From an uncultured Ruminococcus sp. (lineage in GTDB: Bacteria; Bacillota; Clostridia; Oscillospirales; Acutalibacteraceae), in assembly GCA_902779615.1 (NCBI GenBank), contig CACZCM010000012.1, positions 1 through 51,743 of the forward strand: 51,743 bases of DNA, read 5' to 3'. Positions 9,503 through 51,743 of the stretch are shown piece by piece. The notes under the pieces are model-generated. The model did no database searches and was not told where the DNA came from. It was given only the letters and a program-made list of their open reading frames with translations. The position numbers and the translations under genes were made by a program. Each line of letters starts with the position of its first letter. The stretch's first letter is position 1.

Positions 9503-9522
9503 AAAAAAACTATATATTCGGT

Positions 9523-11931: not shown

Positions 11932-12042
11932 TGTAAATGATCTCCTTTACTAACAGTTTTAATGTTTTGTAACTATTCAGTACCCCTCCGTCTTCGCTGC
12001 CGCGTCGGTCGGTGGTGCCCAAGCGGACACAGGCAATTACGC

Positions 12043-12112: not shown

Positions 12113-12121
12113 TTCAAGCGA

Positions 12122-12257: not shown

Positions 12258-12326
12258 ATATTTTTTATTAGGTTCCGAATAGTTACCATATTTTCTAAAA
12301 ATCGATCGCCTTAATGACACCCCGCC

Positions 12327-12689
12327 TTAATTCTCGACAATGAGAACATCGGAAATATCTATCTCCTCGCCGTCCGCCCACAGCTTGTCAAGATCATAAT
12401 ACTCCCGAGCCTCTTCCGAGAACACATGAACTACAACGTCAACGTAATCCAGCAGGATCCAGCTGTCATTCTTGTGCCCTTCGATATGGCTGACGGTCTC
12501 GCCCGCCTCTTTCAGACGAAATTCGACCTCGTCCGCCAGCGCGCGGACCTGAGTTGAACTGAATCCCGTTGCGATCACGAAATAATCCGTCATTGCCGTT
12601 ACTGCGTCAACCTTTATGACTTTTATGCCTGCGCCCTTCTTGCTGTCGATGGCCTTTGCCGCAAGCTTTGCAGTTTCCAATGATGTCAT
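12327..12689 (-). CDS. rsfS: Ribosomal silencing factor RsfS
   Basis: RsfS binds ribosomal protein L14 on the 50S subunit and blocks subunit joining when nutrients are short. The 120-residue protein shows the family core DYFVIATGFSSTQVRALAD, then HIEGHKNDSWILLDYVDVVV and the C-terminal YYDLDKLWADGE. The SD AAGGAGTGACAG precedes the ATG. It follows nadD-yqeK, a common Firmicutes order (nadD-yqeK-rsfS), and a family B repeat fills the space between them. Confidence 0.96.
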   Translation of the reverse strand: MTSLETAKLAAKAIDSKKGAGIKVIKVDAVTAMTDYFVIATGFSSTQVRALADEVEFRLKEAGETVSHIEGHKNDSWILLDYVDVVVHVFSEEAREYYDLDKLWADGEEIDISDVLIVEN

Positions 12690-12760
12690 ACTGTCACTCC
12701 TTTATTTCTATATGATATTTTTTTACTGATCGGTAATGCTGTAAAGATCGATCAGTTTTT

Positions 12761-12892
12761 TAAAAGCTCTTCATTCAACAAGCAGTAGGCTTGCGAGTTC
12801 ATCAGGGGATATTTATGCAGCTGATGAACTTAAGACTTGATCCGCCGCCCTTAGATACGGGCGACATCTCCTCTGCGGTTATTTAGTACTAC
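12761..12892 (-). repeat. Family B structured repeat overlapping the nadD-yqeK 3' end
   Basis: On the minus strand the element begins AATAACCGCAGAGGAGATGT inside the last codons of nadD-yqeK. It then has a CCCGTATCTAAGGGCGGCGG hairpin (the TAA stop lies in the loop) and a long hairpin with arms AGTTCATCAG and CTGATGAACT. It finishes with GCAAGCC-type and AAGAGCTTTTA segments. The last roughly nine residues of the protein come from it. Confidence 0.75.
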
Positions 12893-14056
12893 TTCATTGT
12901 AGCACGCAACGGCGTTCGGGTCAATAGCTGTATTTTTTTCGGCAAGCTCGGCTATACTGAACGAAAGCCCATAGATCATCGCCGATTCAAGGCTTTTATC
13001 CGCAAGCTCCCTCATCTTTTCAACGCCGCTGTAGTTCCTTTCTGCGCTCGTGAAATCCGCAATAAAAATACATTTTTCAAGCAGACTCATTCCCGCTCTT
13101 CCCGAGGTGTGATATCGTATTGCATTGCAGATATCCTCGTCCGCAACTCCTATCACATTCTTTACAAACGCCGCTCCCGACATTGCGTGCCACAGCTTCG
13201 GACTTGAAAGAACAAGGTCGTCAAGCGGAACGCTGTAACGCTTCATGATATCCAGCTGATCCTCGTGCGGAGTTTCCTTCGTGATATCGTGAAGCAGTCC
13301 CGCAAGCTTCGCCTTATCCTTGTCTGCACCGTAAAGCCCCGCAAGCCGAACTGCCTCATCGGATACATTGCAGGAATGCTGATACCGCTTCTCGCCCATT
13401 CTCGCCTTCAGCACCTTGTGCAGCCAGGGATAATTGATCTGCTCTTTGTTCATATATAGATAATGCGCATAGATATACCGCTCGACATCTTCGCAGACGT
13501 ATTTTGAAATGCTCTTGTCGTTATAGACCGCAGCTCGGATCTGAGTGCTCGAAATATCGGACTTTTTCATATCAAGCACGATAGTTTCGGCGCCCATCGC
13601 CTTATACTTTTCGTCCATCTCATAAAGAAGAGTAACATCGCCGCCGCCCCGTGCAACAGTGCAGATCACCGCAAGCTTAAACAGCTCCTCGGGCTGTCTC
13701 CAATCAAGCAGCGACACAAACATATCTTCTCCCATTATCAGGTAAAACTCACTGTCGGGATAAATTTCCGAAAGCTGTCTGAGAGTATCTACAGTATAGC
13801 TTTTCCCCTCTCGTTCGAGTTCAATACTGCACACTTCCGCTTTTTTTATCTGCTTTGCGGCAAGCTGACACATCTCAAGACGTTCTCTGTTTTGAGCCAT
13901 GTTTTCACTTGATTTATGCGGCGGGATATTGGTCGGGATAAGCAAAAGCTTATCCGGCTTCAGCTTCTTGACGAACGCTTGGGCAATAGATATATGCGCA
14001 TTATGTATCGGGTTGAAGCTTCCTCCGTAAATGGCTATTTTACGTAACTTTTTCAT
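12851..14056 (-). CDS. nadD: Nicotinate-nucleotide adenylyltransferase fused to YqeK HD-domain hydrolase
   Basis: One 401-residue chain contains two normally separate proteins. Residues 1-200 are NadD, which adenylates nicotinate mononucleotide in NAD synthesis, with the nucleotidyltransferase motif GGSFNPIHNAH and C-terminal SSTQIR. Residues about 205-401 are a YqeK-type HD domain (symmetrical Ap4A hydrolase in characterised members) with RYQHSCNVS, the LLHDITKE metal site and IRYHTSG. In B. subtilis the two are adjacent genes, so this is a fusion of neighbours. The ATG at 14056 is preferred over a TTG three codons earlier. The final residues RRGDVARI are encoded by a family B repeat, beyond the usual family end. 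Confidence 0.94.
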   Translation of the reverse strand: MKKLRKIAIYGGSFNPIHNAHISIAQAFVKKLKPDKLLLIPTNIPPHKSSENMAQNRERLEMCQLAAKQIKKAEVCSIELEREGKSYTVDTLRQLSEIYPDSEFYLIMGEDMFVSLLDWRQPEELFKLAVICTVARGGGDVTLLYEMDEKYKAMGAETIVLDMKKSDISSTQIRAAVYNDKSISKYVCEDVERYIYAHYLYMNKEQINYPWLHKVLKARMGEKRYQHSCNVSDEAVRLAGLYGADKDKAKLAGLLHDITKETPHEDQLDIMKRYSVPLDDLVLSSPKLWHAMSGAAFVKNVIGVADEDICNAIRYHTSGRAGMSLLEKCIFIADFTSAERNYSGVEKMRELADKSLESAMIYGLSFSIAELAEKNTAIDPNAVACYNEVVLNNRRGDVARI

Positions 14057-37607: not shown

Positions 37608-39447
37608 TTAGTCTACGTCCTTGAAGTCAGCGTCATATACGTTGCCGTCGCTGCCGCCGTTCGAGCCTGCATTATCATTCGGGATATCCGTCGGCTGCGC
37701 GGTCTGCGCCTGCTGCTGTGCGCCCGCTGCCTGATACAGCTTTGTAGATACGCCCTGAATGCACTTTTCAAGATCCTCCTTTGATCTTGTCGATGTCGTC
37801 TGTCTTAATAGCTTCGCGAACCGATGCTGCCTTAGTTTCCATTTCGGTCTTATCGGAAGCGTCGATCTTGTCGCCGTTCTCCTTGATGAGCTTCTCTGCG
37901 GAGTATGCGAGATTTTCTGCGGAGTTCTTCTCGTCAACAGCCTCTCTGCGCTTCTTATCTTCAGCTGCGTACTTCTCTGCTTCCGCAACAGCCTTTTCGA
38001 TGTCCTCCTTACTCATGTTCGTGTCGGACTTGATCGTTACCTTCTGCTCCTTGCCCGTGCCGAGATCCTTCGCCGACACATTAACGATACCGTTGGAATC
38101 GATGTCGAAGGTTACCTCGATCTGCGGGATACCTCTCGGAGCTGCCGGGATACCCGAAAGAATGAAGTCGCCGAGCTTCTTGTTATCTCTTGCAAACTCA
38201 CGCTCGCCCTGGAGAACGTTGATCTCAACAGAGGGCTGATTGTCGGCAGCCGTCGAGAAGATCTGACTCTTCTTTGTCGGGATAGTTGTGTTTCTCTCGA
38301 TGATCTTTGTCATGATACCGCCCATGGTTTCAACGCCGAGTGAAAGCGGAGTAACGTCGAGGAGCAGCAAGCCTTCAACCTCGCCGCCGAGTACGCCTGC
38401 CTGGATAGCTGCGCCGATCGCAACGCACTCATCGGGATTGATGCCCTTGAACGGATCCTTGCCGATAAACGACTTAACTGCGTTGATTACAGCCGGAATT
38501 CTCGACGAACCGCCGACCATGAGCACCTTGTCGATCTCGTTGATCGAAAGCTTCGAGTCGGAAAGAGCCTGCTTAACGGGACCCATTGTCTTCTCAACGA
38601 GATCGCTCGTAAGTTCGTCAAACTTAGCTCTTGTGAGAGTGAGGTCAAGGTGCATAGGACCATTTTCGTCCTGCCAGATGAAGGGGATATTGATCGATGT
38701 GCTCGTAACGCCCGAAAGATCGATCTTTGCCTTCTCAGCAGCGTCCTTGATGCGCTGCTTTGTTGTAGGGTCGTTTCCGATAGCAACGCCGTTTTCCTTC
38801 TTGAACTCCTCGATCATCCAATCCATGATCCTCTGGTCGAAGTCGTCGCCGCCAAGACGGTTGTTGCCCGCTGTTGCGAGAACTTCCTGAACGCCGTCGC
38901 CCATTTCGATGATAGATACGTCGAATGTGCCGCCGCCGAGGTCATAAACCATTACCTTCTGCTCGTTGCCCTTGTCGATACCGTAGGACAATGCAGCAGC
39001 TGTCGGCTCGTTGATGATTCTCTTAACGTCAAGGCCTGCAATCTGTCCTGCATTCTTTGTAGCCTGACGCTGAGCGTCCGTGAAGTATGCGGGAACGGTG
39101 ATGACTGCCTGAGTAACAGTTTCGCCGAGATATGCCTCTGCGTCTGTCTTGAGCTTCTGAAGGATCATAGCCGAGATCTGCTCGGGCGTATAGGTCTTAT
39201 CGTCAATATTCACCTTATAGTTTGTGCCCATTTCTCTCTTGATGGAGCTTACTGTCTTATTCGGGTTAGATACTGCCTGACGCTTTGCGATCTGACCAAC
39301 AAGACGCTCGCCCGTCTTCGAAAAACCTACAACAGACGGAGTTGTTCTTGCGCCTTCTGCATTTGCGATAACAACAGGCTCGCCGCCTTCGATAACTGCT
39401 ACGCATGAGTTAGTTGTACCAAGATCTATACCAATTACTTTTGCCAT
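37608..39447 (-). CDS. dnaK: Chaperone DnaK (Hsp70), with a +1 frame break near the C-terminus
   Basis: DnaK binds exposed hydrophobic peptides in an ATP-driven cycle with DnaJ and GrpE. The ATPase domain starts [14 protein letters not shown] and includes [12 protein letters not shown] and [10 protein letters not shown]; the substrate domain follows ([16 protein letters not shown]). The frame from the ATG stops at TGA 37768-37770 after 559 residues. The continuation [16 protein letters not shown] to DADFKDVD is in the +1 frame and ends at TAA 37608. Total length is 1840 bases, so removing one base gives a normal 612-aa DnaK. Around the break the minus strand reads CAAGATCAAAGGAGGATCTT G, an AGGAGG with flanking 7-bp palindrome. 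The most likely original reading is IKEDLEKC. Error, mutation or recoding are all possible. Confidence 0.93.
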
Positions 39448-39507
39448 GATAAATTTCTCCTTTTAATATAATTTGAAAATATTACAATGACCATTTATAT
39501 TTGATCA

Positions 39508-40065
39508 TCAATTGACTGTCTGGACCATCGCATGACGAATTATCTTATCGCCGATCTTGTATCCCTTCTGATACACAACTGCGATAGTGTCGCTCTCCAA
39601 TTCGTCGCTGTCTACGCTCGAAATCGCATTGTGGAACTCCGGATCGAATGTATCGCCCACCTCGCCGAACGCTGTGATATTCAGCTTCTCCAGGCTTTTT
39701 GCGATCTGATTAGCTATCATCTCAAGTCCCTTGCGAAACTCCTCGGGAGCGTTCTTTGACGCTTCAAGCGCTCTGTCTATATTGTCTGCTATCGGTAGTA
39801 TCTCACTGACCGTATCGGATACGGCATTAGCATAAACCGCTGCCTTTTCTCTTTCACTTCTTGTGCGGTAGTTTGCGTACTCGGCAGCCGTGCGCAGCAG
39901 CTTCTCCTTCTCTTCCTCAAGAGCCTTTTTAAGAGCGTCCGTGCCGTCGGCAGGCTCGGTATTCGCCGCATCCTCGCCGCTTTTGTCCGTTTTTGCCTCT
40001 TCGCTTTCCTCAGTGTCAAGCTCCTCGGCAGCTTCGGTTTTCTCCTTCTCTTTCTCTGTACCCAT
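39508..40065 (-). CDS. grpE: Nucleotide exchange factor GrpE
   Basis: GrpE releases ADP from DnaK. The 185-residue protein has a long acidic, low-complexity N-terminus (to residue about 45), a coiled coil (ALKKALEEEKEKLLRTAAEY) and the family segment YRTRSEREKAAVYANAVSD. The C-terminal beta domain contains GDTFDPEFHNAI and VVYQKGYKIGDKIIRHAMV. It lies between hrcA and dnaK in the CIRCE-controlled operon. Confidence 0.96.
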   Translation of the reverse strand: MGTEKEKEKTEAAEELDTEESEEAKTDKSGEDAANTEPADGTDALKKALEEEKEKLLRTAAEYANYRTRSEREKAAVYANAVSDTVSEILPIADNIDRALEASKNAPEEFRKGLEMIANQIAKSLEKLNITAFGEVGDTFDPEFHNAISSVDSDELESDTIAVVYQKGYKIGDKIIRHAMVQTVN

Positions 40066-40122
40066 CTATCTCATTTCCTTTCCTTTGCGCTTATCCCCCA
40101 AAAGAGGTATCAAGCGTTATCG

Positions 40123-41151
40123 CTATTCTGTCAAGATCATTTCCTTCAGCAGCCGCCCCGCAACATCTGCGGCATACTCGAGAACCGCCTCGGCGTAAGC
40201 ATAATCACACCTCATAGGGAGCAGCGCCGTAACAAATCCGCCGTTCGTCCCCTCGAGAAAATACGGCGCGGCAGCAAAGCTGAAGCGTTCGAGCGCCGCC
40301 TCGCCGAGATCAGACCCGATAAGGAATCGGTTTCCGCCTCTCAGCTTCATGATGAGCGACTTCAGCGCTTCGTCCGAGTGCAGCGTCTTCAACAGCGCAG
40401 CAGCGTTATCGATACCGGTTTCGTCTGCGGATATAAGCCTTTCTCTCCCCGCAACCGCAATATCGAAATCGCCGACCTCTCTGCACGCCTCCATTATCGC
40501 CATCAAGACCGGAGGAACAAGCAGCGCGATCTCGCCGAGCTTTATCGCCTGTGTTTGAATATATGCGGGAGTCACGCTTCTGATCGGCAGCCCTTCCATG
40601 TCCCTATTGAATATCGTTTCATATATATTCACGATATCGGGAGTTATTACGTAGTCGCACTTAAACAGCTTCGTTTTGATAAGACCTTTTGAAGTTATCA
40701 GAACAGTCATGCACGACTGCCTTCCCGTCTGCACGAATTTCAGTCGGTGGATACGCTCGTTTTCGGAAAACGGCGTAGTCACGATCGACGCAGACCCAAG
40801 CAGCGCCGAAATAATATCGGCAGCCGACTTAATGAGCATTTCCGGATCTCCGCAGTCATGAAGCTTCTCATACACCGCCGCTTTTTCAGTTCCCGAAAGC
40901 GGCTTGGGCGTCATCAGCGAATCAACATACATACGAAATCCCGCCTCTGACGGCTGTCTGCCCGCCGATGTATGAGGCTGCGTCAACAGACCCATATCCG
41001 TCAGCCTGACCATCTCGCTGCGAACGGTTGCAGGCGACACGCTGAAGTCAAGCGCTCCGCACACAAGCTTCGAACCGACAGGCTCTCCGCTGCTGATATA
41101 TTCCTCAACTATCGTCTTGAGGATCTTTATCGTTCGCTCTCTCGTCTGCAT
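40123..41151 (-). CDS. hrcA: Heat-inducible transcription repressor HrcA
   Basis: HrcA binds CIRCE operators and represses class I heat-shock genes; its folding depends on GroEL. The 342-residue protein has an N-terminal winged helix (ERTIKILKTIVEEYISSGEP, then SPATVRSEMVRLTDMGLLTQ) with the conserved PHTSAGR-type sequence at QPHTSAGRQPSE. The dimerisation and GAF-like domains follow. It is first in hrcA-grpE-dnaK and lies just downstream of a perfect CIRCE, so it is autoregulated. Confidence 0.97.
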   Translation of the reverse strand: MQTRERTIKILKTIVEEYISSGEPVGSKLVCGALDFSVSPATVRSEMVRLTDMGLLTQPHTSAGRQPSEAGFRMYVDSLMTPKPLSGTEKAAVYEKLHDCGDPEMLIKSAADIISALLGSASIVTTPFSENERIHRLKFVQTGRQSCMTVLITSKGLIKTKLFKCDYVITPDIVNIYETIFNRDMEGLPIRSVTPAYIQTQAIKLGEIALLVPPVLMAIMEACREVGDFDIAVAGRERLISADETGIDNAAALLKTLHSDEALKSLIMKLRGGNRFLIGSDLGEAALERFSFAAAPYFLEGTNGGFVTALLPMRCDYAYAEAVLEYAADVAGRLLKEMILTE

Positions 41152-41172
41152 AAGCTCACCTCGATCATTGAA

Positions 41173-41199
41173 TTAGCACTCACATCTATCGAGTGCTAA
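41173..41199 (-). promoter_or_regulatory. CIRCE operator
   Basis: TTAGCACTC (41173-41181), nine bases, and GAGTGCTAA (41191-41199) match the CIRCE consensus without mismatch. It lies between the -10 element and hrcA, over the expected transcription start, which is where HrcA would block the polymerase. Confidence 0.97.
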
Positions 41200-41209
41200 C
41201 CTACTTTTA

Positions 41210-41237
41210 ATTATACATTTATTCTACGATTTGTCAA
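41210..41237 (-). promoter_or_regulatory. Sigma-A promoter of hrcA-grpE-dnaK
   Basis: On the minus strand TTGACA (41232-41237), a 16-base spacer and TATAAT (41210-41215) precede the CIRCE. Confidence 0.88.
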
Positions 41238-41294
41238 TAGGTTTATGCGCCAAAATTTGAAAAAATTTGCGGATCGATATATCCGTACGGGAGC

Positions 41295-41571
41295 AATGTC
41301 ATTAACTTAAGACTTTAGCGTCGCCTTGGGGCGGCGAGGATACTTTATTCTTGCCGTTAGTAGGAGACGCTTTCTGCCAAAGCGTCCCCTCTTCCGAAAC
41401 AATCCACTGGATTGTTTCGGAACTCACCCCTTGCAAAGGGCTGGAGCATGCCTCCGGCGGGCGGGACTCCGGTCTCACCTGCCGGTTCGGTCGGTGCTTC
41501 TGCCTTTGGAAACCGCAAGCCTTTTGAAAAAGGCTTGACGAAAACTTTATGCTGTGCTCTACCGAACCTTT
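41295..41571. repeat. Intergenic repeat, family A copy 2, longest
   Basis: It opens with TGTCATTAACTTAAGACTTT, then carries blocks shared with 14430-14663: the GGGGCGGCGAGGATACTTTA segment, AGACGCTTTCTGCCAAAGCG, CGAAACAATCC/GGATTGTTTCG and CCCTTGCAAAGGGCTG. It ends with the GTCGGTGCTTCTGCCTTTGG segment and an inverted copy of the conserved end (AAAACTTTATGCTGTGCTCT then ACCGAACC). Each end of the element carries the TTAACTTAAG or GGTTCG module, one direct and one inverted. The rest of the gap 41238-41796 holds a family B remnant and a promoter. Confidence 0.7.
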
Positions 41572-41632
41572 GACCGCCGAAAGGAATGCCGACTATGGGC
41601 AGGCTTGTGCTTGTTCTAAACAGAGCTTTGAA
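41570..41632 (+). repeat. Family B structured repeat, degenerate, joined to family A
   Basis: It starts TTGACCGCCGAAAGGAATGC and retains the AGGCTTGTGCTTGTTCTAAA and CAGAGCTTTGAAAAA blocks, so both ends of family B are recognisable but the hairpins are eroded. There is no gene directly upstream; it abuts the right end of the family A copy. Confidence 0.5.
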
Positions 41633-41648
41633 AAATTTCTTTTTTTCA

Positions 41649-41675
41649 TTGACAAGACTTCAAAAATGGTATAAT
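41649..41675 (+). promoter_or_regulatory. Candidate promoter of the membrane protein gene
   Basis: TTGACA at 41649-41654 and TATAAT at 41670-41675 are separated by 15 bases, slightly short; a TAATAT two bases on gives 17. The leader to the ATG is about 115 bases. Confidence 0.55.
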
Positions 41676-41796
41676 ATTATAATTGAGTTTGTATCCCATC
41701 AGATCGGCGAAGCTGTGTTTTCGCCGTAACTTATGCAAAGATCATTATCGGTTTGCCGACAATTTATATTATATAATGAAAGGACGTATATCTATT

Positions 41797-42921
41797 ATGA
41801 AAATAAGGGCTAGTTGGGTTGCGTTTGTACCGCTCTCGGTCGGCGCGGTGCTGCTGCATATTTATTACCTGTTTTTTATCGGCGGTGAAGAGATTACACA
41901 GCCGCTGTTTTCGAATTATTCCCTGCTGATAAACAAGTCCACCGAACCGGAGCTGATATCCATTTTCGCCGGAATACTGCTTATATTTGCGGTGTTTTTC
42001 TCACTAATCGACCGCAAAACCGCGCCGTACTGCGAGATAAAATCGTCGCCTCTCAGCGGATTGTTCCTGATAATCGCAGCCCTCATTATGGGCGTTGACA
42101 GTGCGCTGGGAGTTGTGAACGTTCTTTCAGGCTCGGTATCGGGCGGATTGATCCTCCTGTTTTACGCCGCGGGCGTTGTAACGGCGATGCTGCTGGCGTC
42201 TGTGGGAATGGGACTTATGATGGGCTACAATATCGCAAAGAAGATCCGCGCGGCAATGCTTCTTCCCACGATCTGGGCAGCTGTCAATCTCGTAATGGGC
42301 TTTATGCGCCACCGCAGAGAAGCGCCGTCGTTTGCGCTTTACGATATGTTCGTATGGGTAGCGCTGACTCTGTTCATTTTCTATAACTCAATGGTCCTGT
42401 GCGGAGTGGAGATAAAGAACCCCGTCAAATCGTCGTTCGTTTGGGGTATGCTGCTGTTATTTTACGATATAATATACGTTATATCCGAAACAGACGCTTC
42501 CATGAGAGAATTCGGCAGCTTCCGCTTTATGGAGCTGCTCCCGCAGATGATGATAGCCGCTTTCGGGCTGTATGCGCTGTTCTTCCTGTTTAAGCTTTCG
42601 TCCTGCATGATAACAAAAGAGCAGGAAAAAGCGCTCGAATCAAGCGGCGACTCTGCGCCCGCTCGAACGGACAAGCGCAAAAAGACAGACACCGCAGGCG
42701 AGGACGATGAGCCTGAATCGGCATACGGAGTCGGCAGCACGAAGTATGTCACCGCAGAATTTGAGAAGATCAGGATCGAAAAAGCAGCGAAAAAAGCAAA
42801 GGAGCGCACCGGAGCGCTTCCGCAGACCGCACCCTCCGAAGCCTCCGACGACAGCGATGAAGATGAGCTTTCGACGCTGGACAAGATCGATCAGCTGATA
42901 CAGGAGCTTTCGGAAGAATGA
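41797..42921 (+). CDS. Unknown polytopic membrane protein with charged cytosolic tail
   Basis: I do not recognise a family. From the ATG at 41797 (after AAAGGACG) the product is 374 aa. About eight hydrophobic helices occupy residues 5-275; recognisable ones include LISIFAGILLIFAVFFSLI and FLIIAALIMGVDSALGVV. About 100 residues of charged, Ala/Glu/Lys-rich tail follow, predicted as coiled coil or disordered (FEKIRIEKAAKKAKERTGAL), ending STLDKIDQLIQELSEE. An upstream in-frame extension to 41683 looks non-coding. A terminator follows it, so it is transcribed separately from the next operon. Confidence 0.75.
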   Translation: MKIRASWVAFVPLSVGAVLLHIYYLFFIGGEEITQPLFSNYSLLINKSTEPELISIFAGILLIFAVFFSLIDRKTAPYCEIKSSPLSGLFLIIAALIMGVDSALGVVNVLSGSVSGGLILLFYAAGVVTAMLLASVGMGLMMGYNIAKKIRAAMLLPTIWAAVNLVMGFMRHRREAPSFALYDMFVWVALTLFIFYNSMVLCGVEIKNPVKSSFVWGMLLLFYDIIYVISETDASMREFGSFRFMELLPQMMIAAFGLYALFFLFKLSSCMITKEQEKALESSGDSAPARTDKRKKTDTAGEDDEPESAYGVGSTKYVTAEFEKIRIEKAAKKAKERTGALPQTAPSEASDDSDEDELSTLDKIDQLIQELSEE

Positions 42922-42947
42922 TCCGCCGGAACATACGAGTAACTAAC

Positions 42948-42976
42948 GGACGCAGGTTTTACGCTTGCGTCCTTTT
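42948..42976 (+). terminator. Rho-independent terminator
   Basis: GGACGCA (42948-42954) pairs with TGCGTCC (42966-42972), extended inward by G-T and T-A pairs, followed by TTTT. It closes the membrane protein transcript. Confidence 0.8.
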
Positions 42977-43039
42977 CGTTTATCTGTAATTTTCCGAACA
43001 AAATCAAAAAAAGCCCTACCAATTTTTGCCGACATATGG

Positions 43040-43045
43040 TATAAT
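43040..43045 (+). promoter_or_regulatory. Extended -10 promoter of the four-gene operon
   Basis: TATAAT is preceded by TGG, giving the extended -10 form (TGnTATAAT). No good -35 is present at 17 bases. The leader to the first ATG is about 75 bases. Confidence 0.5.
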
Positions 43046-43127
43046 GGGAATAGTGCCTGCAAATAAGGCTGTTTGGAATGTATATAGGCGCAATAAATTT
43101 TTATTTTAGAGGAGTTCGTATTCGGTC

Positions 43128-44090
43128 ATGAAGAACGACAAAATATATTACAGCGTTGGCGCGCTGCTTTATTGTCCCGCAAACAACGAAAGTATTGTTC
43201 GCTCCGTCACGACGGAAAAGTTTGGGACCAAGTATTCTTTGGCGCTTTGCCTTGAAGATACCATCAACGATGATTTTGTTGACGAAGCGGAAGCTATTAT
43301 GATAAAATCGATAAAAAAGATATACGAATACAGCTGTTCAAATAATATATTTATCCCGAAAATATTTATTAGAGTACGCAGCCATGAACAGATCGAGCGG
43401 ATATTTGACGAGCTTGGTTCGGCTGCCTCGCTCCTTTTCGGCGTAATAGTACCGAAATTCACAGCCGACATCGCCGATGATTACATCAGAGCAATTCGCA
43501 GGATCAACGATACATATCACCGAACGAAATACATTATGCCGATACTTGAAAGCTCGGATATGATAGATCTCAGGGCCCGATGCAGTATGCTGTACAGCAT
43601 CAAAGAAAAGATCGATGAGATCGAGCCGCTTGTCCTGAATATCAGAGTGGGCGGCAACGACCTGTGCAAGACCTTCGGGTTCCGCCGTCACAACGACGAA
43701 TCGATACACAATATCAAGCCTGTGTCCAACATTCTAAGCGATATAGTCACGGTATTCGGCAGAGATTACGTTGTATCCGGTCCGGTGTGGGAGTATTACA
43801 ACGGCAGCGGCTGGGATACAGGACTTCTCAACGAGATCAAGGGCGATATTCTGTGCGGCTTTGTCGGAAAAACCGTCATCCACCCGAACCAGATCGCCGT
43901 TGTGAACAAAGCGTACATGGTCAGCCGCAAAGATCTTGAGGATGCAAACGCAGTGCTCAACTGGAGCAAGGGAAGCATTTCGATGGTAGCAGGCTCACAA
44001 AACAACGAGCGAATGAATGAATACAAGACTCATGCCGTTTGGGCTGAAAAAATAAAGATCCTCGCCGATGTTTACGGCGTGCAAAGCTGA
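43128..44090 (+). CDS. HpcH/HpaI (citrate lyase beta-like) C-C lyase, ter-module type
   Basis: The 320-residue protein is a TIM-barrel C-C lyase of the HpcH/HpaI superfamily. Recognisable parts are the N-terminal ALLYCPANNE and LEDTI (42-46), IFIRVRS (80-85), the VPKF strand, Glu141 in MPILESSDM and Asp178 in IRVGGNDLC as likely Mg2+ ligands, and GKTVIHPNQIAVV near the C-terminus. Family members split or join a pyruvate or acetyl unit using CoA or free acids; the substrate here is unknown. It heads an operon with two phosphoribosyltransferases and an ATP-grasp enzyme, the arrangement linked to a predicted nucleoside-like product. The SD AGAGGAG is 13 bases from the ATG, which is long. Confidence 0.9.
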   Translation: MKNDKIYYSVGALLYCPANNESIVRSVTTEKFGTKYSLALCLEDTINDDFVDEAEAIMIKSIKKIYEYSCSNNIFIPKIFIRVRSHEQIERIFDELGSAASLLFGVIVPKFTADIADDYIRAIRRINDTYHRTKYIMPILESSDMIDLRARCSMLYSIKEKIDEIEPLVLNIRVGGNDLCKTFGFRRHNDESIHNIKPVSNILSDIVTVFGRDYVVSGPVWEYYNGSGWDTGLLNEIKGDILCGFVGKTVIHPNQIAVVNKAYMVSRKDLEDANAVLNWSKGSISMVAGSQNNERMNEYKTHAVWAEKIKILADVYGVQS

Positions 44091-44099
44091 GGATAGTAT

Positions 44100-45230
44100 A
44101 TGAAAGACATTTTATTTACAGAAGATAATCTTGCAAAGACAGCCAAAAGAGAAAATAACAACAAACGTAAATATTTGGTAGTTAACCCCTATCAGGGAAA
44201 GCACGTTCCGACAAGCGGCAGACAGGCAGAGGAAATGTTTGACACGCTTGCAGAAAAGCTGAAAAACGCATACGGCGAGAGATCGGGGCGAATACTTATT
44301 GTCGGGTTTGCTGAAACTGCAACGGCGATCGGCGCGCGGCTGGCAATAACTCTCGGCACGCTTTACACTCAGACTACCCGTGAACCGATAGATAATGTTG
44401 AATATTTATTCTTCACGGAATCCCACAGTCACGCAACAGAACAAAAGCTTTGCAGAAACGATCTTGAATCGGTCATTGATAATATCGATATGATCGTTTT
44501 CGCCGAGGACGAGGTAACGACAGGCAGCACTATCTTAAAAATAATCGATATTATCGAGGGCTTATACCCGGGCAGGCTGAAGTTTTCGGTGGCGTCGCTG
44601 CTGAACGGTATGGAAAACGAGTCGCTCGCCGTCTACAGCAGCCGTAATATCGACGTGCATTACCTTGTCAAAACTCATCATGAGGGATATACGGCGATCG
44701 CAGAATCGTACACCGCAAACGGAATCTATATTGAAAAAGATACTGCTGCGCGCAGCGACTTAATCATCACCGATATCGGCGAAAACTACGTAAACACACG
44801 CCGAATTTGCAGCGGCAGCGAATATCTTGCCGCCTGCACCGCGCTTGCCCGCAGTATCTGCGAGCGTATACCGATAGAAAATGTGCATTCGGCTGCCGTT
44901 ATCGGAACGGAAGAATTTATGTATCCCGCGATCCACACTGCGGCGCACCTTGAATCACTGGGTATCAGCGCAAAAACTCATTCAACCACACGAAGTCCTA
45001 TCGAGGTGTGTACCGATAAAAATTACCCGCTGCACACCCGATTTTCTCTTACAAGCCTGTATGATCCAGAACGTCAGACATTTATTTACGATATCGGAAA
45101 ATATGATATCGTGATAGTAATAACGGACTCTCCGTTTATTTCGGAGAAAGGATATCATTCTTTGATGAATGCTTTGCGTTATTCCGGCAATACTAATATA
45201 TACACATTCAGGTGGTGCAGCAATGAATAA
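44100..45230 (+). CDS. Phosphoribosyltransferase with C-terminal TRSP domain
   Basis: The N-terminal half is an orotate-PRTase-like fold: GFAETATAIG at 69-78 fits the pyrophosphate loop, and the PRPP-binding loop EDEVTTGST at 136-144 is canonical (acidic pair, then TTGxT). The conserved FTESHSHATEQ at 105-115 is typical of this subfamily. The C-terminal domain carries the motif TRSP at residues 297-300 (in HSTTRSPIEV), after which the TRSP domain is named. It should transfer a ribose 5-phosphate from PRPP to an unknown acceptor. It begins 10 bases after the lyase gene and its stop overlaps the next gene by 8 bases, so the four genes are one transcript. Confidence 0.92.
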   Translation: MKDILFTEDNLAKTAKRENNNKRKYLVVNPYQGKHVPTSGRQAEEMFDTLAEKLKNAYGERSGRILIVGFAETATAIGARLAITLGTLYTQTTREPIDNVEYLFFTESHSHATEQKLCRNDLESVIDNIDMIVFAEDEVTTGSTILKIIDIIEGLYPGRLKFSVASLLNGMENESLAVYSSRNIDVHYLVKTHHEGYTAIAESYTANGIYIEKDTAARSDLIITDIGENYVNTRRICSGSEYLAACTALARSICERIPIENVHSAAVIGTEEFMYPAIHTAAHLESLGISAKTHSTTRSPIEVCTDKNYPLHTRFSLTSLYDPERQTFIYDIGKYDIVIVITDSPFISEKGYHSLMNALRYSGNTNIYTFRWCSNE

Positions 45231-46296
45231 AACAAACGAATATCTTGTAAAGACATCCTACAAGCCCGAGGACGTGACTCTGCTTTTGAAGGACGTTACG
45301 GGGCTTGTTGAACCGCAGCCCACCGAAGAAAGGGAGCGGCTGATACAATCGGGGCGGCATTACTGCGAGATGCTGCCTATTGAGTACGTACCCACACAAC
45401 GGTATATGCAGGTCTACGAGGAAGCGCTGCAGGCATTCGCCAAGCCGACCGCCGAAGCGATAAGCCGCCTTGGCGACAAAGTTATTGCACAAAAAGGCGA
45501 AGGTGTGGTGCTTGTATCGCTTGCCAGAGCAGGCATACCGATAGGTATCCTTTTGAAGCGTTACATAAAGCGGAAATTCGGCGCGGATGTACCGCACTAC
45601 TCGATCTCAATAATCAGAGGACGGGGTATCGACCGCCGCGCAATGGAATACATCTTGGAACGGCACGCGTCGCGCGACATACTTTTTGTGGACGGCTGGA
45701 TAGGCAAGGGCGCAATACTGAGGGAGCTTCAGAAGGAGCTGTCGCAGTACAAGGGTGTATCGAGCGACATTGCAGTTGTTGCAGACCCGGCAAACGTGAC
45801 GGAGCTATGCGGAACGCACGACGATATACTCATACCCAGTTCATGCTTAAATTCAACTGTATCGGGTCTTGTCAGCAGGACATTCCTGCGCAGCGATATT
45901 ATCGGGAGCGATGATTTCCACGGCGCAGTGTATTACGGAGAACTGAGGGACGCCGATCTGTCGTATGAATTTATAGATGCGATCGAATCGAAATTCGATA
46001 TGAACGTGCCGCCCGCAAAGCCGGCAGTTCCCGGATACGGACTCGACGAGGTAAGATCGCTTGCCGAGAGATATTCGGTAGACGATATCAATCTTATAAA
46101 ACCCGGTATCGGCGAAACGACACGTGTTTTGCTCCGAAGAGTGCCGTGGAAGGTGCTGATAGACGAGCATTACAAAAACTCCCCCGACCTTGCGCACCTT
46201 ATCCGTTTAGCGCAGGAGAAAAACGTTCCGATCGAATACTGCCCGCTTACGCACTACAAAACGTGCGGCATAATAAAAAAGCTTGCCGATGCGTAA
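45223..46296 (+). CDS. StiP-like phosphoribosyltransferase with Pelota-like C-terminal domain
   Basis: The 357-residue protein matches the StiP/PRTase_1 family seen in ter loci. SLARAGIPIG at 99-108 fits the pyrophosphate loop. The loop aligned with the PRPP motif reads FVDGWIGKGAI at 155-165, lacking the usual Asp-Asp and Thr-Thr-Gly, so its chemistry may differ; the family was once annotated as a cysteine protease. Residues about 265-357 (INLIKPGIGETTRVLLRR to HYKTCGIIKKL) look like a Pelota/L7Ae-type RNA-binding fold. The ATG at 45223 follows CAGGTGG and overlaps the TRSP gene by 8 bases, implying coupled synthesis. Confidence 0.9.
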   Translation: MNKTNEYLVKTSYKPEDVTLLLKDVTGLVEPQPTEERERLIQSGRHYCEMLPIEYVPTQRYMQVYEEALQAFAKPTAEAISRLGDKVIAQKGEGVVLVSLARAGIPIGILLKRYIKRKFGADVPHYSISIIRGRGIDRRAMEYILERHASRDILFVDGWIGKGAILRELQKELSQYKGVSSDIAVVADPANVTELCGTHDDILIPSSCLNSTVSGLVSRTFLRSDIIGSDDFHGAVYYGELRDADLSYEFIDAIESKFDMNVPPAKPAVPGYGLDEVRSLAERYSVDDINLIKPGIGETTRVLLRRVPWKVLIDEHYKNSPDLAHLIRLAQEKNVPIEYCPLTHYKTCGIIKKLADA

Positions 46297-46344
46297 AACG
46301 GCAAGCTGCAGCATAAAACAATTAAGGAGAATTAATATTTTTAA

Positions 46345-47355
46345 ATGATTCGTGTATGGTTCAACCATTGGTTTCGCACTGCATACAGCCTGATCGAACT
46401 GGTCAGGCAGACTGAAGATGAAGATATATATATTATCGGCTCTAACCTGACAGCGGAGTCACCGATAAAGCTTATGTGCGATGAATGGTATGTTGAAGAA
46501 AACCTGCGGGAAGATGAATACGTTGGGTTTTGTCTTGATTTTTGTAAAAAGCACAATATCGACGTATTGGTGCCGTACCGCAATATGGCGGTCATAGCCG
46601 CAGAGAAAGATAAATTCGAAGCGATCGGCGTAAAGCTTATGTGCGAATCATCCTGTTTAATGGATCTGCTTGAAGATAAGGCCGCCGCATATGAACATCT
46701 TTCGGTCAGCGGCATAAATATTCCCGAATACAGGATCATAAGCACGGCTTCCGAGCTGGAATGCGCATATAAAGATCTGAGCGCGCGTTACGATCGGCTG
46801 TGCATAAAATGCACAAACGACAGGGGCGGTCAAAGCTTCCGTGTTATCAGCGAGCACATAGACAAGTACGAAAGTCTGTTTAAGTATCCGTCTTCTGCGG
46901 TAAGCTATGATTCGCTGCGCAGGATCTTATCCGAAAAAGCCTCATTTAAAAGCATGATGATAATGCCTCTGATGTCGCAGCCCGAAGTTGAGGTCAGCGC
47001 AGACTGCCTTGACTGCGGCAGTGAAAGGATAATTATCCCAAGATTTAAATACAGCGGTCATGTTGAAAAGATCATATATGATAACGAGATAATATCCATG
47101 GTAAATAAAGTCATGGATATTATCGCCCCGAAATATATTATTGATGTGCAGTTCCGATATCTTAACGGTGTACCTCATTTGCTCGAAGTGAATGCCAGAA
47201 TGTCGGGCGGACTTCCGCTTAGCTGCGCGGCGGCAGGAGTCAATATCCCAGCTCTTTCGCTGAAAAAAGTCCTCGGGCGGGAGATGACCGCGCCCAAATA
47301 TATAAAAGAAACGAAGACGATATCATTTGTTGAAGTGCCGACCGCTCCCCATTGA
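46345..47355 (+). CDS. ATP-grasp ligase of the four-gene operon
   Basis: ATP-grasp enzymes form an acyl-phosphate and join it to an amine or thiol. The 336-residue chain has a pre-ATP-grasp domain (1-105) and the nucleotide-binding segment LCIKCTNDRGGQSFRVIS. The metal-binding C-terminal motif is EVNARMSGG, with Glu281 and Asn283, equivalent to the E-x-N of the family. It has Cys at NDR-adjacent and CLDCGS positions of unknown meaning. A TAA directly before the ATG fixes the start at 46345; the SD AAGGAGA is 14 bases away, which is long. It would ligate the product of the upstream lyase and PRTases to another molecule. No HAD phosphatase follows. Confidence 0.9.
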   Translation: MIRVWFNHWFRTAYSLIELVRQTEDEDIYIIGSNLTAESPIKLMCDEWYVEENLREDEYVGFCLDFCKKHNIDVLVPYRNMAVIAAEKDKFEAIGVKLMCESSCLMDLLEDKAAAYEHLSVSGINIPEYRIISTASELECAYKDLSARYDRLCIKCTNDRGGQSFRVISEHIDKYESLFKYPSSAVSYDSLRRILSEKASFKSMMIMPLMSQPEVEVSADCLDCGSERIIIPRFKYSGHVEKIIYDNEIISMVNKVMDIIAPKYIIDVQFRYLNGVPHLLEVNARMSGGLPLSCAAAGVNIPALSLKKVLGREMTAPKYIKETKTISFVEVPTAPH

Positions 47356-47368
47356 CCGCAAAAATAAG

Positions 47369-47403
47369 ACGCCCTCCCGTAATTGCCGGAGGGCGTTGAT
47401 TTT
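47369..47403. terminator. Terminator closing the four-gene operon (bidirectional)
   Basis: ACGCCCTCC (47369-47377) pairs with GGAGGGCGT (47388-47396), followed by TGATTTTTT. It lies between convergent genes; the permease gene stop is directly beside it. Confidence 0.88.
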
Positions 47404-48231
47404 TTAATCCATTATCAAATCAATTTTGTTATATCTCATGCAGCTTATGACAAGGCTGACAACAGTCATCAATAGTCCCGCAGCTATTCCGATCACATAT
47501 AACCGGCTTTCGCCTGTTATGATGCCGAATATGCTGATGTATGAGTACGGAGAAAAGATCTTCATTATGCTCAGAGTCTTTGCAGCCGAACCGATGATCC
47601 CGAAAAGTATCGTTATCGTTACAACGACCGCAGATATCGAAGACGCCTGCGAGCCGCTGTTCATAAATGTCGCAAGCAGGAACGAGATCGCCAGATAGAT
47701 TATCTCTATCAGCAAAAATGCGCCGACCGCAAGCAATACTTTGCCGAGATACGACATCTTGTTGTTCGAATACAGTACCGCTATCGACACAAGCGCGACC
47801 ACGATGTTATGCAGGAACAGAGTTACAAGCTGCGCGACAAATCCCGTCATTACCGCGCACGTTCTCGAAACAGGCAGAGAGTAAACAAACGTTACGTCAC
47901 TGTCGCCCCTGCCGTTTGTATTGGCGGACGCTCCCAGGTAGCTTGCATACACGCAGCCGACTATGAGCATTATTTGCAGGCAGACTCCGAAATTTACGCC
48001 GAAGTCCTTAAAGTCAAGCGGTTCGGAATCGGGCGCGCTGCCCGTAACAGCTCCCGGCATTGACGAAGCCATATCGCTGATGAACTCGGGCAGACCTGCG
48101 CTCAGCAAATTCGAGAACATCACAACGATGAGAATAAAAAGACACAGTGAGATCGTTGACCACACGAGGAAATTTTTTGTGCGGCTTTTGAGCTTATAGC
48201 CCAGCAGTGTAAAAGAAAAGTATTCATTCAT
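47404..48231 (-). CDS. ABC-2-type transporter permease
   Basis: The 275-residue membrane protein has six hydrophobic helices at about 20-45, 80-105, 125-150, 155-185, 190-215 and 240-265. A long extracellular loop lies after the first (FISDMASSMPGAVTG...), the layout of ABC-2 export permeases. The FVYSLPVSRTCAVM segment before helix 3 is the coupling region typical of this family. Its ATG overlaps the stop of the ATPase gene (ATGA). The substrate is unknown. Confidence 0.85.
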   Translation of the reverse strand: MNEYFSFTLLGYKLKSRTKNFLVWSTISLCLFILIVVMFSNLLSAGLPEFISDMASSMPGAVTGSAPDSEPLDFKDFGVNFGVCLQIMLIVGCVYASYLGASANTNGRGDSDVTFVYSLPVSRTCAVMTGFVAQLVTLFLHNIVVALVSIAVLYSNNKMSYLGKVLLAVGAFLLIEIIYLAISFLLATFMNSGSQASSISAVVVTITILFGIIGSAAKTLSIMKIFSPYSYISIFGIITGESRLYVIGIAAGLLMTVVSLVISCMRYNKIDLIMD

Positions 48232-49142
48232 CAGTTTTCACCTCCGTTTTCCTGTTCAAGCTGCCTTTCATAAAAGCGAACTAAAGCGTCGCCCAAAGAC
48301 GGAAGCGTGATCTGAAGATCGTCAAGATCATATGTTGCAAGAGCGCCGATAAGACTGTTCATATCCTTTTTATACAGGAATGATATATAGCCGTTGTCGT
48401 CCTTATCGACCTCCGTTATGCGGAACAGATTGTAAAGAGCCGACAGATCGTCCGATGTCTTTACGCTGATACGGCGGGTATCGCTCTTTAGCAGAACCTC
48501 CTTCTCGGAGATCTCAAGCAGCGTACCTTTTCTCATGATAGCAATGCGGGTGCATATTTGCTGAAGCAGATCGATATTTCGGTCGCTTATCACCACCGTG
48601 ACGCCTTCTTTATTGTTAAGGTCGAGCAGATAGTGCGCTAGCTTGTTCTTTGTTTCTTTATCGAGCGCAACAAAGCAGTTGTCCATGATAACAAGCCTCG
48701 GACTGCCCATGAGCGCGATAACTATAGCGATCTTTTTCCTGCACGAAAGCGGGAGACTGCCGACGCGCTTGTTGCGGTCAACATTAAAATGCTTGCACAG
48801 GCGCATTACCTGCTCGTTATCGGTAACTCCCTTTATCTTTGCGGCGGTACGGATAACGTCGATAGCCTTCATGGTTTCGCAGTACGTAGGATTGGACGGC
48901 ATGAACCCGATCATTCGCTTCTTTTCGGTAGAAAGCTTCCAGGACTTTTGTCCCATAACGGTGATAACTCCCGATGTAGGGCGGATAAAGTCCATACAAA
49001 GGTTGATGATCGTACTCTTTCCGCTTTTCTTAGGTCCCGCTATGCCAAAAAAGTCACCTTCGTTCACGGCGAATGACGTGTCACCGAGCGCAGGCCGTTT
49101 GGTATAGTATTTGGAAACTTTATCCAGGGTGATAATAGCCAA
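48231..49142 (-). CDS. ABC transporter ATP-binding protein with degenerate catalytic motifs
   Basis: Walker A is intact (GPKKSGKST, residues 36-44), but other motifs have changed. The signature LSGGQ reads LSCRK (132-136). Walker B reads VIMDN, so the catalytic Glu is Asn155. The H-loop His position reads Arg188 in VISDRNIDLL. The Q-loop region MPSNP lacks a clear Gln. It probably binds ATP but hydrolyses it slowly or not at all, unless another ATPase pairs with it. A C-terminal domain of about 100 residues follows. TTG 49142 is selected because AAAGGAGAG lies 7 bases before it. It is coupled to the permease. Confidence 0.9.
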   Translation of the reverse strand: MAIITLDKVSKYYTKRPALGDTSFAVNEGDFFGIAGPKKSGKSTIINLCMDFIRPTSGVITVMGQKSWKLSTEKKRMIGFMPSNPTYCETMKAIDVIRTAAKIKGVTDNEQVMRLCKHFNVDRNKRVGSLPLSCRKKIAIVIALMGSPRLVIMDNCFVALDKETKNKLAHYLLDLNNKEGVTVVISDRNIDLLQQICTRIAIMRKGTLLEISEKEVLLKSDTRRISVKTSDDLSALYNLFRITEVDKDDNGYISFLYKKDMNSLIGALATYDLDDLQITLPSLGDALVRFYERQLEQENGGEN

Positions 49143-49210
49143 TTCGGAACTCTCCTTTAATACATTCATTTTCTTTTCATTTCTTTTGGATAAACATCCG
49201 GACACTATAA

Positions 49211-49239
49211 ATTATACTTAATTTCCGGAAACTTTTCAA
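49211..49239 (-). promoter_or_regulatory. Sigma-A promoter of the ABC transporter operon
   Basis: On the minus strand TTGAAA (49234-49239), a 17-base spacer and TATAAT (49211-49216) lie about 70 bases before the TTG start of the ATPase gene. Confidence 0.8.
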
Positions 49240-49306
49240 CATATATTTCTCCATTTTAAAAATTTTTTATACGCAGGTTTTAATGTGATTATTTGCAATT
49301 ATGTTA

Positions 49307-49335
49307 TTGAAAAATATCACGAAATATGGTAAAAT
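49307..49335 (+). promoter_or_regulatory. Sigma-A promoter of glyA
   Basis: TTGAAA (49307-49312), a 17-base spacer and TAAAAT (49330-49335) precede glyA by about 85 bases. It is divergent from the ABC promoter. No riboswitch was recognised in the short leader. Confidence 0.78.
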
Positions 49336-49419
49336 CAAAGCAGACAGTTTATATACGCTCACGGTAGGCTTGTTCCATACCGTTAAGTCTAAAATAGTAT
49401 TATATGAGGTGTGATAACA

Positions 49420-50673
49420 ATGTACAATGAATATCTCGATACCATCAGCTTCGTGGCTAAGTTTGACCCCGATGTTGCAGACGGTATGCAGCAGGAACTG
49501 AAGCGTCAAAGAAGAAATCTTGAACTTATTGCCTCGGAGAACCTCGTTTCTCCGGCAGTTATGGCTGCAATGGGCTCGGTTCTGACAAATAAATACGCCG
49601 AGGGCTATCCGGGAAAGCGTTATTACGGCGGCTGCCAGTGCGTCGATATCGTTGAGGATATCGCAAGGAAAAGAGCGTGCGAGCTTTTTGGCGCGGATCA
49701 CGCAAACGTTCAGCCTCACTCGGGCGCTCAGGCTAACATGGCGGTTTACTTTGCGCTGCTCAATCCGGGCGATACGGTTATGGGCATGAACCTCGCCGAA
49801 GGCGGACACCTTTCACACGGCTCACCCGTAAATATGTCGGGCAAGTATTACAATTTCGTAAGCTACGGCGTTGACCCCGTTACTCATCGCATTGACTACG
49901 ATAAGGTCATGGAGATCGCTATGGAGTGCAAGCCGAAGCTTATCGTTGCTGGCGCAAGCGCATATCCCCGCATTATCGATTTCAAGAAGTTCAGAGAGAT
50001 CGCAGACGCCTGCGGCGCTATCCTCATGGTTGATATGGCTCACATCGCAGGTCTTGTTGCCGCAGGCGCTCACCCCAACCCGGTTGAGTACGCCGACATC
50101 GTGACAACCACTACCCACAAAACGCTCAGAGGCCCCAGAGGCGGTCTTATTCTCTGCAAGGAAGAGTACGCCAAGGCGATAGACAAGGCTGTTTTCCCCG
50201 GTTCTCAGGGCGGCCCGCTCATGCACGTTATAGCCGCTAAGGCTGTTTGCCTCGGCGAAGCTCTCAAGCCCGAGTTCAAGGCTTACGGCGAGCAGATCGT
50301 TAAAAACGCTCAGGCTCTCGCCAACGGACTGACAAGCAGAGGTCACAAGCTTGTTTCGGGAGGCACTGATAACCACGTTATGCTGCTCGATCTGTCGGGC
50401 ACGGAGCTTACCGGCAAGGAGCTGGAGCACAACCTTGACGAGGTGTATATCACGGCAAACAAGAACACCATTCCGAATGAACAGAGAAGTCCGTTCGTAA
50501 CCTCGGGCGTTCGTCTTGGAACGGCTGCCGTTACTTCAAGAGGTCTTGTTGAGGAAGATATGGACAAGATCGCAGAGTTTATCCATCTCGTTATCGAGGA
50601 CTTCGAGGGCAACAAAGAAAAAGTTCAGGCTGGCGTTACGGAGCTGCTTGAAAAATATCCGCTTTACGAATAA
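49420..50673 (+). CDS. glyA: Serine hydroxymethyltransferase
   Basis: SHMT converts serine and tetrahydrofolate to glycine and methylene-tetrahydrofolate with PLP. The 417-residue protein contains [59 protein letters not shown] and the PLP lysine K234 in [14 protein letters not shown]. The ATG at 49420 is preferred to a GTG three codons earlier, because that GTG forms part of the GAGGTG ribosome site. Methylene-THF is also the donor for TrmFO. Confidence 0.98.
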
Positions 50674-50686
50674 TATCAAAATGCTT

Positions 50687-50711
50687 CAAGGGGAGGGTAA
50701 ACCTTCCCTTG
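50687..50711. terminator. Hairpin after glyA, possible weak terminator
   Basis: CAAGGGGAGGG pairs with CTTCCCTTG across a TAAAC loop. No T-run follows, so it may stabilise the glyA message or terminate weakly before rarA. Confidence 0.45.
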
Positions 50712-50748
50712 ATCGTATATTACAGCGAATTTGAAAGCAGGTGAAAAT

Positions 50749-51743
50749 ATGCCGCCGCTGGCAGACAAGATCCGCCCCCGAAGGCTTGACGATGTTGTGG
50801 GGCAAACTCATTTGATCGGGCAGGGCAAACCGCTTCGCCGAATAATCGAGTCCGGAGAGATCCCGAACATGGTGTTCTACGGCCCTTCCGGCGTGGGAAA
50901 AACTACTATCGCTTCGATAATCGCCGACAGCACCAACAAAACGCTCCGCCGCTTAAACGCTACGACCGCTTCAACTCAGGATATCAAAGATGTGGTGGCG
51001 CAGATCGACACCTTTGCGGGAATGAACGGGATACTGCTTTATCTTGACGAGATACAGTACTTTAACAAAAAGCAGCAGCAGACTTTGCTTGAGTTTATCG
51101 AGAACGGCAGCATTACGCTCATAGCTTCGACTACAGAAAACCCCTATTTTTATGTATACAACGCAATATTATCACGCAGTACTGTATTTGAATTCAAAAC
51201 CATTGAATCGAAAGAGGTTCAGCGGGCAGTCAAACGGGCTTACGAGTGCATTGAAAAAGAAAAGGGCTTAACATACACGATCGAGAACGGCGTAACGGAA
51301 TATATAGCAACGGCGTGCGGCGGCGATGTGCGAAAAGCGCTGAACGCAGTGGAGCTGACTGCTCTGACCGCGGAGGATAACGGCAATGCGAAGATCATAA
51401 CGCTTGAAAGCGCAAAGCAGCTTACACAAAGATCTGCTCTGCGCTACGACAAAGACGGCGACTCTCATTACGACATTCTGTCGGGATATCAGAAATCAAT
51501 GAGAGGGTCGGACGCAAACGCTGCTTTGTATTATCTGGCAAGGCTGCTTGAAGCGGGCGATCTGCCTTCCGCCTGCCGCAGACTTATGGTTTGCGCGTGC
51601 GAAGATGTGGGGCTTGCATATCCTCAGCTGCTGCCGATAGTCAAAGCGTGTGTGGATATGGCAAATGCGGTCGGACTTCCCGAAGCGGCGATACCGCTTG
51701 CCGACGCAGTTGTGATGGTCGCAAATGCGCCGAAATCGAATTC
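50749..51743 (+). CDS. rarA: Replication-associated recombination protein A (RarA/MgsA), 3' end cut
   Basis: RarA is a clamp-loader-like AAA+ ATPase acting at stalled replication forks. It opens MPPLADKIRPRRLDDVVGQ and has Walker A GPSGVGKTT, Walker B LLYLDEIQYF, sensor 1 IASTTENPYFYV and the arginine finger region LSRSTVFEF. The C-terminal oligomerisation region begins near DILSGYQKSMRGSDANAA. The frame stays open to the window edge after 331 codons; about 90-110 more residues would be expected. It follows glyA by 75 bases. Confidence 0.95.
   Translation, partial: MPPLADKIRPRRLDDVVGQTHLIGQGKPLRRIIESGEIPNMVFYGPSGVGKTTIASIIADSTNKTLRRLNATTASTQDIKDVVAQIDTFAGMNGILLYLDEIQYFNKKQQQTLLEFIENGSITLIASTTENPYFYVYNAILSRSTVFEFKTIESKEVQRAVKRAYECIEKEKGLTYTIENGVTEYIATACGGDVRKALNAVELTALTAEDNGNAKIITLESAKQLTQRSALRYDKDGDSHYDILSGYQKSMRGSDANAALYYLARLLEAGDLPSACRRLMVCACEDVGLAYPQLLPIVKACVDMANAVGLPEAAIPLADAVVMVANAPKSN

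Follow-up and report, generated by a model that had tools for sequence, protein, structure and literature searches.

A probable biosynthetic module of the tellurium-resistance (Ter) system placed apart from its TerD/TelA core in an uncultured Ruminococcus genome

We have analysed a group of four genes found in DNA of an uncultured Ruminococcus sp., whose products belong to an already known but uncharacterised kind of system, the pathway to a small molecule in the tellurium-resistance (Ter) stress system. The window, i.e. the whole stretch of DNA analysed, is contig CACZCM010000012.1 (C12; 51.7 kb) of assembly GCA_902779615.1 (G000), which comprises 2.8 Mb in 281 contigs and is estimated to be 99.43% complete and 4.07% contaminated. 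Four open reading frames (ORFs) at 43128-47355, all on the + strand, encode a lyase (LY), a PRTase_2-TRSP phosphoribosyltransferase (PRTase; PT), a StiP protein with a PELOTA_1 domain (ST) and an ATP-grasp ligase (AG), and a membrane protein gene (MEM) lies upstream (Table 1). LY and PT are separated by 9 bases and ST and AG by 48 bases. The ST ORF spans 45169-46296, and its internal ATG at 45223 gives a protein of 357 aa and an overlap of 8 bases with PT. From this layout of one transcription unit, we infer that the four genes are co-transcribed.

An initial annotation of this DNA had described four same-strand genes with an 8-base overlap, one extended -10 promoter in front and one strong terminator behind, and this description is upheld by the ORFs, by folding and by conservation of the -10 element in the sister genome G019 (locus L001). 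The promoter element was not listed by a sigma-70 consensus scan of the window, in which TGNTATAAT has 9 matches against 1.36 expected. For the hairpin behind AG together with its surroundings, a folding energy of -20.9 kcal/mol (z -4.5) was obtained, though the same scan did not list this hairpin either; its - strand copy folds too and could serve the convergent ABC genes. Because a 161-base stretch of L001 does not align as a terminator, and none can be recognised there, the terminator is claimed for G000 only.

Table 1. Positions in the window of the four operon genes, the signals around them and the upstream membrane protein gene
Feature	Position	Strand	Basis
Extended -10 promoter element TGGTATAAT	43037..43045	+	Same element and flanking block in sister locus L001
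LY, CitE/HpcH-like C-C bond lyase (PF15617), 320 aa	43128..44090	+	Pfam, invariant residues
PT, PRTase_2 (PF15609) + TRSP (PF12500), 376 aa	44100..45230	+	Pfam, PRPP loop, model
ST, StiP (PF11202) PRTase-fold domain + PELOTA_1 (PF15608, L7Ae-like), 357 aa	45223..46296	+	Pfam, model
AG, ATP-grasp ligase (PF15632 ATPgrasp_Ter, PylC-like N-terminus), 336 aa	46345..47355	+	Pfam
Terminator hairpin, then U-rich tail TGATTTTTT	47368..47397	+	Folding
MEM, membrane protein, start inferred from relatives	41797..42921	+	ORF list, genus loci
Terminator-like hairpin between MEM and operon	42948..42972	+	Hairpin scan, folding

Pfam matches of all four proteins exceed the family cut-offs (LY, 309 bits; PT, 131 bits for PRTase_2 and 76 bits for TRSP; ST, 347 bits for StiP and 106 bits for PELOTA_1; AG, 101 bits). 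The four families named initially are thereby supported, and so is their assignment to the Ter 'biosynthetic module'; all are Ter-named or Ter-associated. None of the four proteins attains the cut-off of an NCBIfam model. In LY, residues E43/D44, R82/R84, E141 and D178 are invariant among 24 sequences; E141, D178 and a GKxxIHPxQI stretch have aligned counterparts in 5vxc, a citrate lyase beta-like protein, and we take these conserved residues to be catalytic. The loop of PT for phosphoribosyl pyrophosphate (PRPP) reads E136-D-E-V-T-T-G-S-T144, of which E136, D137, E138, T141, G142 and T144 do not vary among 38 sequences, and its predicted model (pLDDT 93.8) has adenine PRTases as top solved-fold matches. 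AG residues E281, N283, R285, S287, G288 and G289 are invariant in 23 sequences, and the carbamoyl-phosphate-synthase-like protein 2pn1 is its closest relative of solved structure (E 1.6e-15). A search with PADLOC 2.0.0 for a known anti-phage defence system gave no match for three of the four proteins and a weak PRTase_III-A match for PT (E 0.0066).

The statement that neither a Ter gene nor a HAD phosphatase lies beside the operon has held, as none of seven TerD and two TelA matches in the assembly is on C12. The further proposal of a minimal pathway analysable without a Ter complex was not supported by profile searches of the whole assembly, which detected TerD on contigs C80, C87 and C114 (one partial, weaker match at a contig end on C114), TelA in full on C80 and in part on C83, and YceG, a rhomboid protein and a P-type ATPase. 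The gene order on C80 is rhomboid, YceG, TelA, four TerD and P-type ATPase, preceded by a fragment read by eye as pyruvate phosphate dikinase, and on C87 an AIM24 gene stands between two TerD genes. TerC had no match in the assembly and was matched in 9 of 14 controls. The cation P-type ATPase gene follows the TerD array (C80, locus L107, 8195-9595), as in most genus loci mapped, and this pump may be standing in for TerC. PRTase_3 (PF15610) was matched neither in the assembly nor in any control genome, so that its absence is undemonstrated. Identities to G019 are 83% for LY, 72% for PT, 84% for ST, 66% for AG, 90% for TelA and 76% for YceG; C80 has been tied to the G000 genome because G019 is the closest genus genome for all six proteins, including TelA and YceG.

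Presence of TerD was surveyed in an order sample (197 genomes; StiP in 7, TerD in 10) and a class sample (391 genomes; StiP above cut-off in 11, TerD in 17), and TerD was found in all 7 and all 11 of the StiP genomes, respectively. Three StiP genomes are common to both samples, leaving 15 distinct ones, and sub-cut-off StiP matches in two class genomes without TerD (G550 and G590) were excluded from the count. With 17 further genus genomes, all 32 StiP-positive genomes examined carry TerD, contrary to the independence from Ter proposed initially. Fisher tests, in which genomes are treated as independent, gave 6e-11 (order) and 2e-17 (class). StiP lies within 10 kb of TerD on one contig in 12 of the 15 distinct genomes and on a separate contig in G000, G238 and G573. 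TerD without StiP was seen in 3/10 (order) and 6/17 (class) TerD genomes and in the Bacillus subtilis control. These counts suggest a dependence of the module on the presence of TerD in the genome, not on adjacency to it.

Gene content was compared in 36 relatives' StiP loci with at least 20 kb covered, selected from 80 loci; StiP is present in them by construction. PT was found in 34, LY in 32, YceG in 31, TelA in 29, TerD in 28, P-type ATPase in 20, rhomboid in 12, AG in 10 and HAD in 9. Their low counts make ATP-grasp and HAD appear optional elsewhere, and the enzyme core in common is narrowed to lyase, PRTase_2-TRSP and StiP. Since five of these loci (L049, L053, L068, L070 and L072) have no TerD, TelA or YceG in the covered flanks, their genomes not having been searched for TerD, separation of operon and core is not unique to G000. 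These five loci, the lack of a TerD or TelA match on the 51.7-kb contig and the operon's own promoter element and terminator would all fit an autonomous pathway independent of any Ter complex, but other contigs of the assembly carry TerD, TelA and YceG, and TerD accompanies StiP in 15/15 order and class genomes and 18/18 genus genomes; such autonomy is quite improbable.

Position of the operon was followed in 22 genomes of the genus including G000, of which 18 have a StiP match and all 22 have matches to TerD and to TelA. In 10 of the 18 StiP genomes (G002, G004, G005, G008, G009, G010, G012, G015, G017 and G018), operon and TelA/TerD core share a contig and lie no more than about 10 kb apart, the nearest operon gene being about 0.4-2.5 kb from the rhomboid-YceG-TelA-TerD-pump array. 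In five others (G003, G006, G013, G016 and G021) a contig ends near the operon, so linkage cannot be read. In G000 the operon lies between MEM and the ABC pair, near HrcA/GrpE (named by eye), with 43 kb and 4.4 kb of flanks covered, and G019 has the same genes on the lyase side for about 7 kb, its contig ending soon after AG. Of the four genomes that lack a StiP match, three (G001, G011 and G020) still have LY next to the core, with a contig end no more than 1 kb away. In G007, LY adjoins the Ter core and PT-ST-AG are on another contig (loci L119 and L133); the operon may be split there, or the assembly chimeric. Because the StiP and TelA trees agree in placing G000 and G019 as sisters (support 100/99 and 100/100, respectively), the relocation looks like a move of a native operon rather than a new acquisition.

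We therefore consider, with a probability of about 0.78, that the operon is the usual Ter biosynthetic module, i.e. the small-molecule half of the system, which has been apart from the sensor/effector half since the ancestor of G000 and G019 and acts on it in trans. Observed grounds for this are the protein families, the active-site residues, the layout, the unlinked core and TerD in every StiP genome examined, and a Ter-less reading is rejected because TerD and TelA are elsewhere in the assembly.

The predicted model of ST (pLDDT 86.8) looks like a PRTase fold joined to an L7Ae-like domain: the best Protein Data Bank matches are PyrR/HGPRT for domain 1 and L7Ae for domain 2, all modest (best E 2e-4), and an L7Ae profile supports the tail with E 0.0055. 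Its loop D157-G158-W159-I160-G161-K162-G163-A164 does not vary among 40 mostly clostridial sequences, and the I160 position is Thr in the Alkaliphilus and pECL_A proteins. The PRPP loop of PRTases usually has an acidic pair and then a Thr-Gly pattern. The StiP loop departs from this pattern, and PRPP may be bound differently. Pfam and plasmid annotations make StiP a cysteine protease, which is the family name and is repeated in many of 40 plasmid records listed. This function is hardly credible: no Cys is invariant across seven diverse homologues (from Clostridia, Treponema, a Gastranaerophilales metagenome-assembled genome, Alkaliphilus and Enterobacter), the two Cys invariant among the 40 mostly clostridial sequences are both replaced in the enterobacterial protein, and the 50 fold matches listed include no cysteine peptidase (two are cysteine desulfurases, with a probability of about 0.5). 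The survey thus speaks against a misleading name in many of those plasmid records.

The same domains allow an action of StiP on RNA, in which the L7Ae-like tail would dock and the PRTase-fold domain would exchange or attach a base, the operon making and installing a modified base with no free signal. The PELOTA_1/L7Ae domain found by profile and fold, a GIxExTR stretch in it that is invariant in the seven diverse homologues, and the unusual PRPP loop agree with this, while no RNA partner was found (an Rfam scan of 38000-51743 gave zero matches) and the proteins matched by the PRTase fold are enzymes or regulators that deal with free bases and nucleotides; we regard this alternative as unlikely.

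MEM had been taken for an orphan membrane protein; the genus loci show that this flank is not random, since its orthologue is within about 1.3 kb of a Ter-type HAD gene in 10 of 13 loci examined; the remaining three HAD loci have no MEM in the piece covered, two of them being at contig ends. In G000 and G019, MEM is next to LY instead. The HAD of Alkaliphilus gave scattered matches as a probe, and a genus HAD (L119, G007) worked better. This HAD, located near MEM, is taken as Ter-type because it shares 48-49% identity with the HADs encoded immediately upstream of PT in L030 and L052, and about 30% with that of the Alkaliphilus ter locus. Matches to it with an E of 1e-10 or below were obtained in 19 of the 22 genomes, and none in the whole assembly of G000, in G019 (83% complete) or in G021 (68% complete). 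The lack of a HAD or TerC match beside the operon therefore extends to the whole assembly, a stronger result than that stated initially. These data point to loss of the Ter-type HAD along with the rearrangement in G000 and G019, with an assembly gap as the alternative. It is a tentative idea, of low though not negligible probability, that the Ter pathway of G000 and G019 dropped HAD as the four enzymes moved as one unit, and that the active compound is phosphorylated, nucleotide-like and acts in trans on TerD. If so, free nucleoside would not be the active form, and these genomes would be a natural experiment on the essential steps (lyase, PRTase and StiP).

As the mechanism of a Ter module acting in trans, we propose that LY would make or trim a carboxylic-acid building block, PT, with its canonical PRPP loop, would transfer phosphoribose from PRPP onto a base-like acceptor, AG would join a carboxylate to an amine, and StiP, with its unusual loop and L7Ae-like tail, would perform or gate a second step. 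The nucleotide-like product would diffuse as a signal to the unlinked TerD/TelA complex, so that gene linkage would not be needed. Because no Ter-type HAD was detected in the genome, final dephosphorylation would be done by another phosphatase or be absent.

Several points weigh against this interpretation. Tetranucleotide correlation between C80 and the window is 0.892 and that of window chunks is 0.927-0.970, the assembly is fragmented (281 contigs) with 4.07% estimated contamination, and membership of C80 in the genome rests mostly on sister-species identity. Common descent is not accounted for in the co-occurrence P-values, the seven order matches representing four genera, and the five long loci without a core in their flanks must be counted here too. 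The fold matches of ST are modest (TM about 0.25 of query and 0.50 of target), and its PRTase activity is doubtful because the PRPP loop has neither the usual second acidic residue nor the Thr. All support comes from analysis of sequences and of predicted models.

The Ter biosynthetic module was reportedly described by Anantharaman et al. in 2012. It is treated in PMC8115787 and PMC7824862, and according to the latter, nucleoside or nucleotide derivatives are made by the PRTases and HAD enzymes of Ter systems and are possibly sensed by TerB and TerD; the signal model proposed above is built on this account. A nucleoside-like metabolite is thus a product predicted in the literature. No biochemical study of the module was found among top-ranked titles and abstracts, subscription papers being mostly outside the search. 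In the Ter locus of Enterobacter cloacae plasmid pECL_A (L143), ATP-grasp, PRTase-TRSP type, StiP and lyase genes also form one run (StiP 39% and lyase 30% identical to the window proteins). It differs from G000 in that a HAD-like gene separates PRTase from StiP and genes of TerZ/A/B/C/D type adjoin on the other strand, whereas in G000 HAD and TerC were not detected and TerD and TelA are unlinked. Rumen Ruminococcus-type and Lachnospiraceae Ter loci (L002-L080) have the same enzymes as the window operon, those of the genus being 66-83% (LY), 56-72% (PT) and 69-84% (StiP) identical; they differ in the linkage to the core seen in 10 genus genomes and in the low counts of AG and HAD among long loci.

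We take the yceC-yceH products of B. subtilis to be of TerD/TerC/YceG/TelA types, a likeness shared by C80 with its YceG, TelA and TerD, and the control genome of this species, with TerD and no StiP match, represents a core without the biosynthetic module. The yceC-yceH genes form one operon (PMC3498285). In Clostridioides difficile, synthesis of two TerD paralogues is up under metronidazole (PMC6262375), which is relevant to the core only. Details new here are the undetected HAD in G000 and its sister, the optional ATP-grasp and HAD, and the StiP fold without an invariant Cys. As such, the operon would be an ordinary Ter module at a rearranged position, and the chemistry of the module has become more testable; remaining interest is in the apparent HAD loss and the natural split, which separate shared from optional parts of the pathway.

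Several observations were made on neighbouring and related genes. For AG in the genus, only long carbamoyl-phosphate-synthase-like frames match in G005, G016, G020 and G021, only a weaker, separate match was found in G014, and G001 has no match at all; contig ends near the operon limit these negatives in G001, G020 and G021. In G018 (L128, 10501-11455), AG is matched as two adjoining pieces, as if broken, and LY, PT and ST are each one piece. The 'degenerate ABC pair' noted initially agrees with the ABC ATPase gene adjoining the operon (48231-49205), whose signature region, usually LSGGQ, reads LPLSCRKK. A contig from the IMG/VR viral collection (L162, 21 kb covered) has no TerD, TelA or YceG match and carries at 7898-13372 one run of LY, PT, ST, HAD, a small membrane protein and AG, flanked by macro-domain-like and vWA-like frames read by eye. 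In 9 of 14 regions, the gap between LY and rhomboid holds a gene for a protein with a Pro-rich linker and a trypsin-like C-terminus (L116, 8369-10090, the only protein on which the Trypsin_2 profile was run; counterparts in L120, L121, L123, L125, L127, L133, L139 and L142). No such gene was seen beside the Ter core on C80, and for some of the nine the YceG profile gives a match as well.

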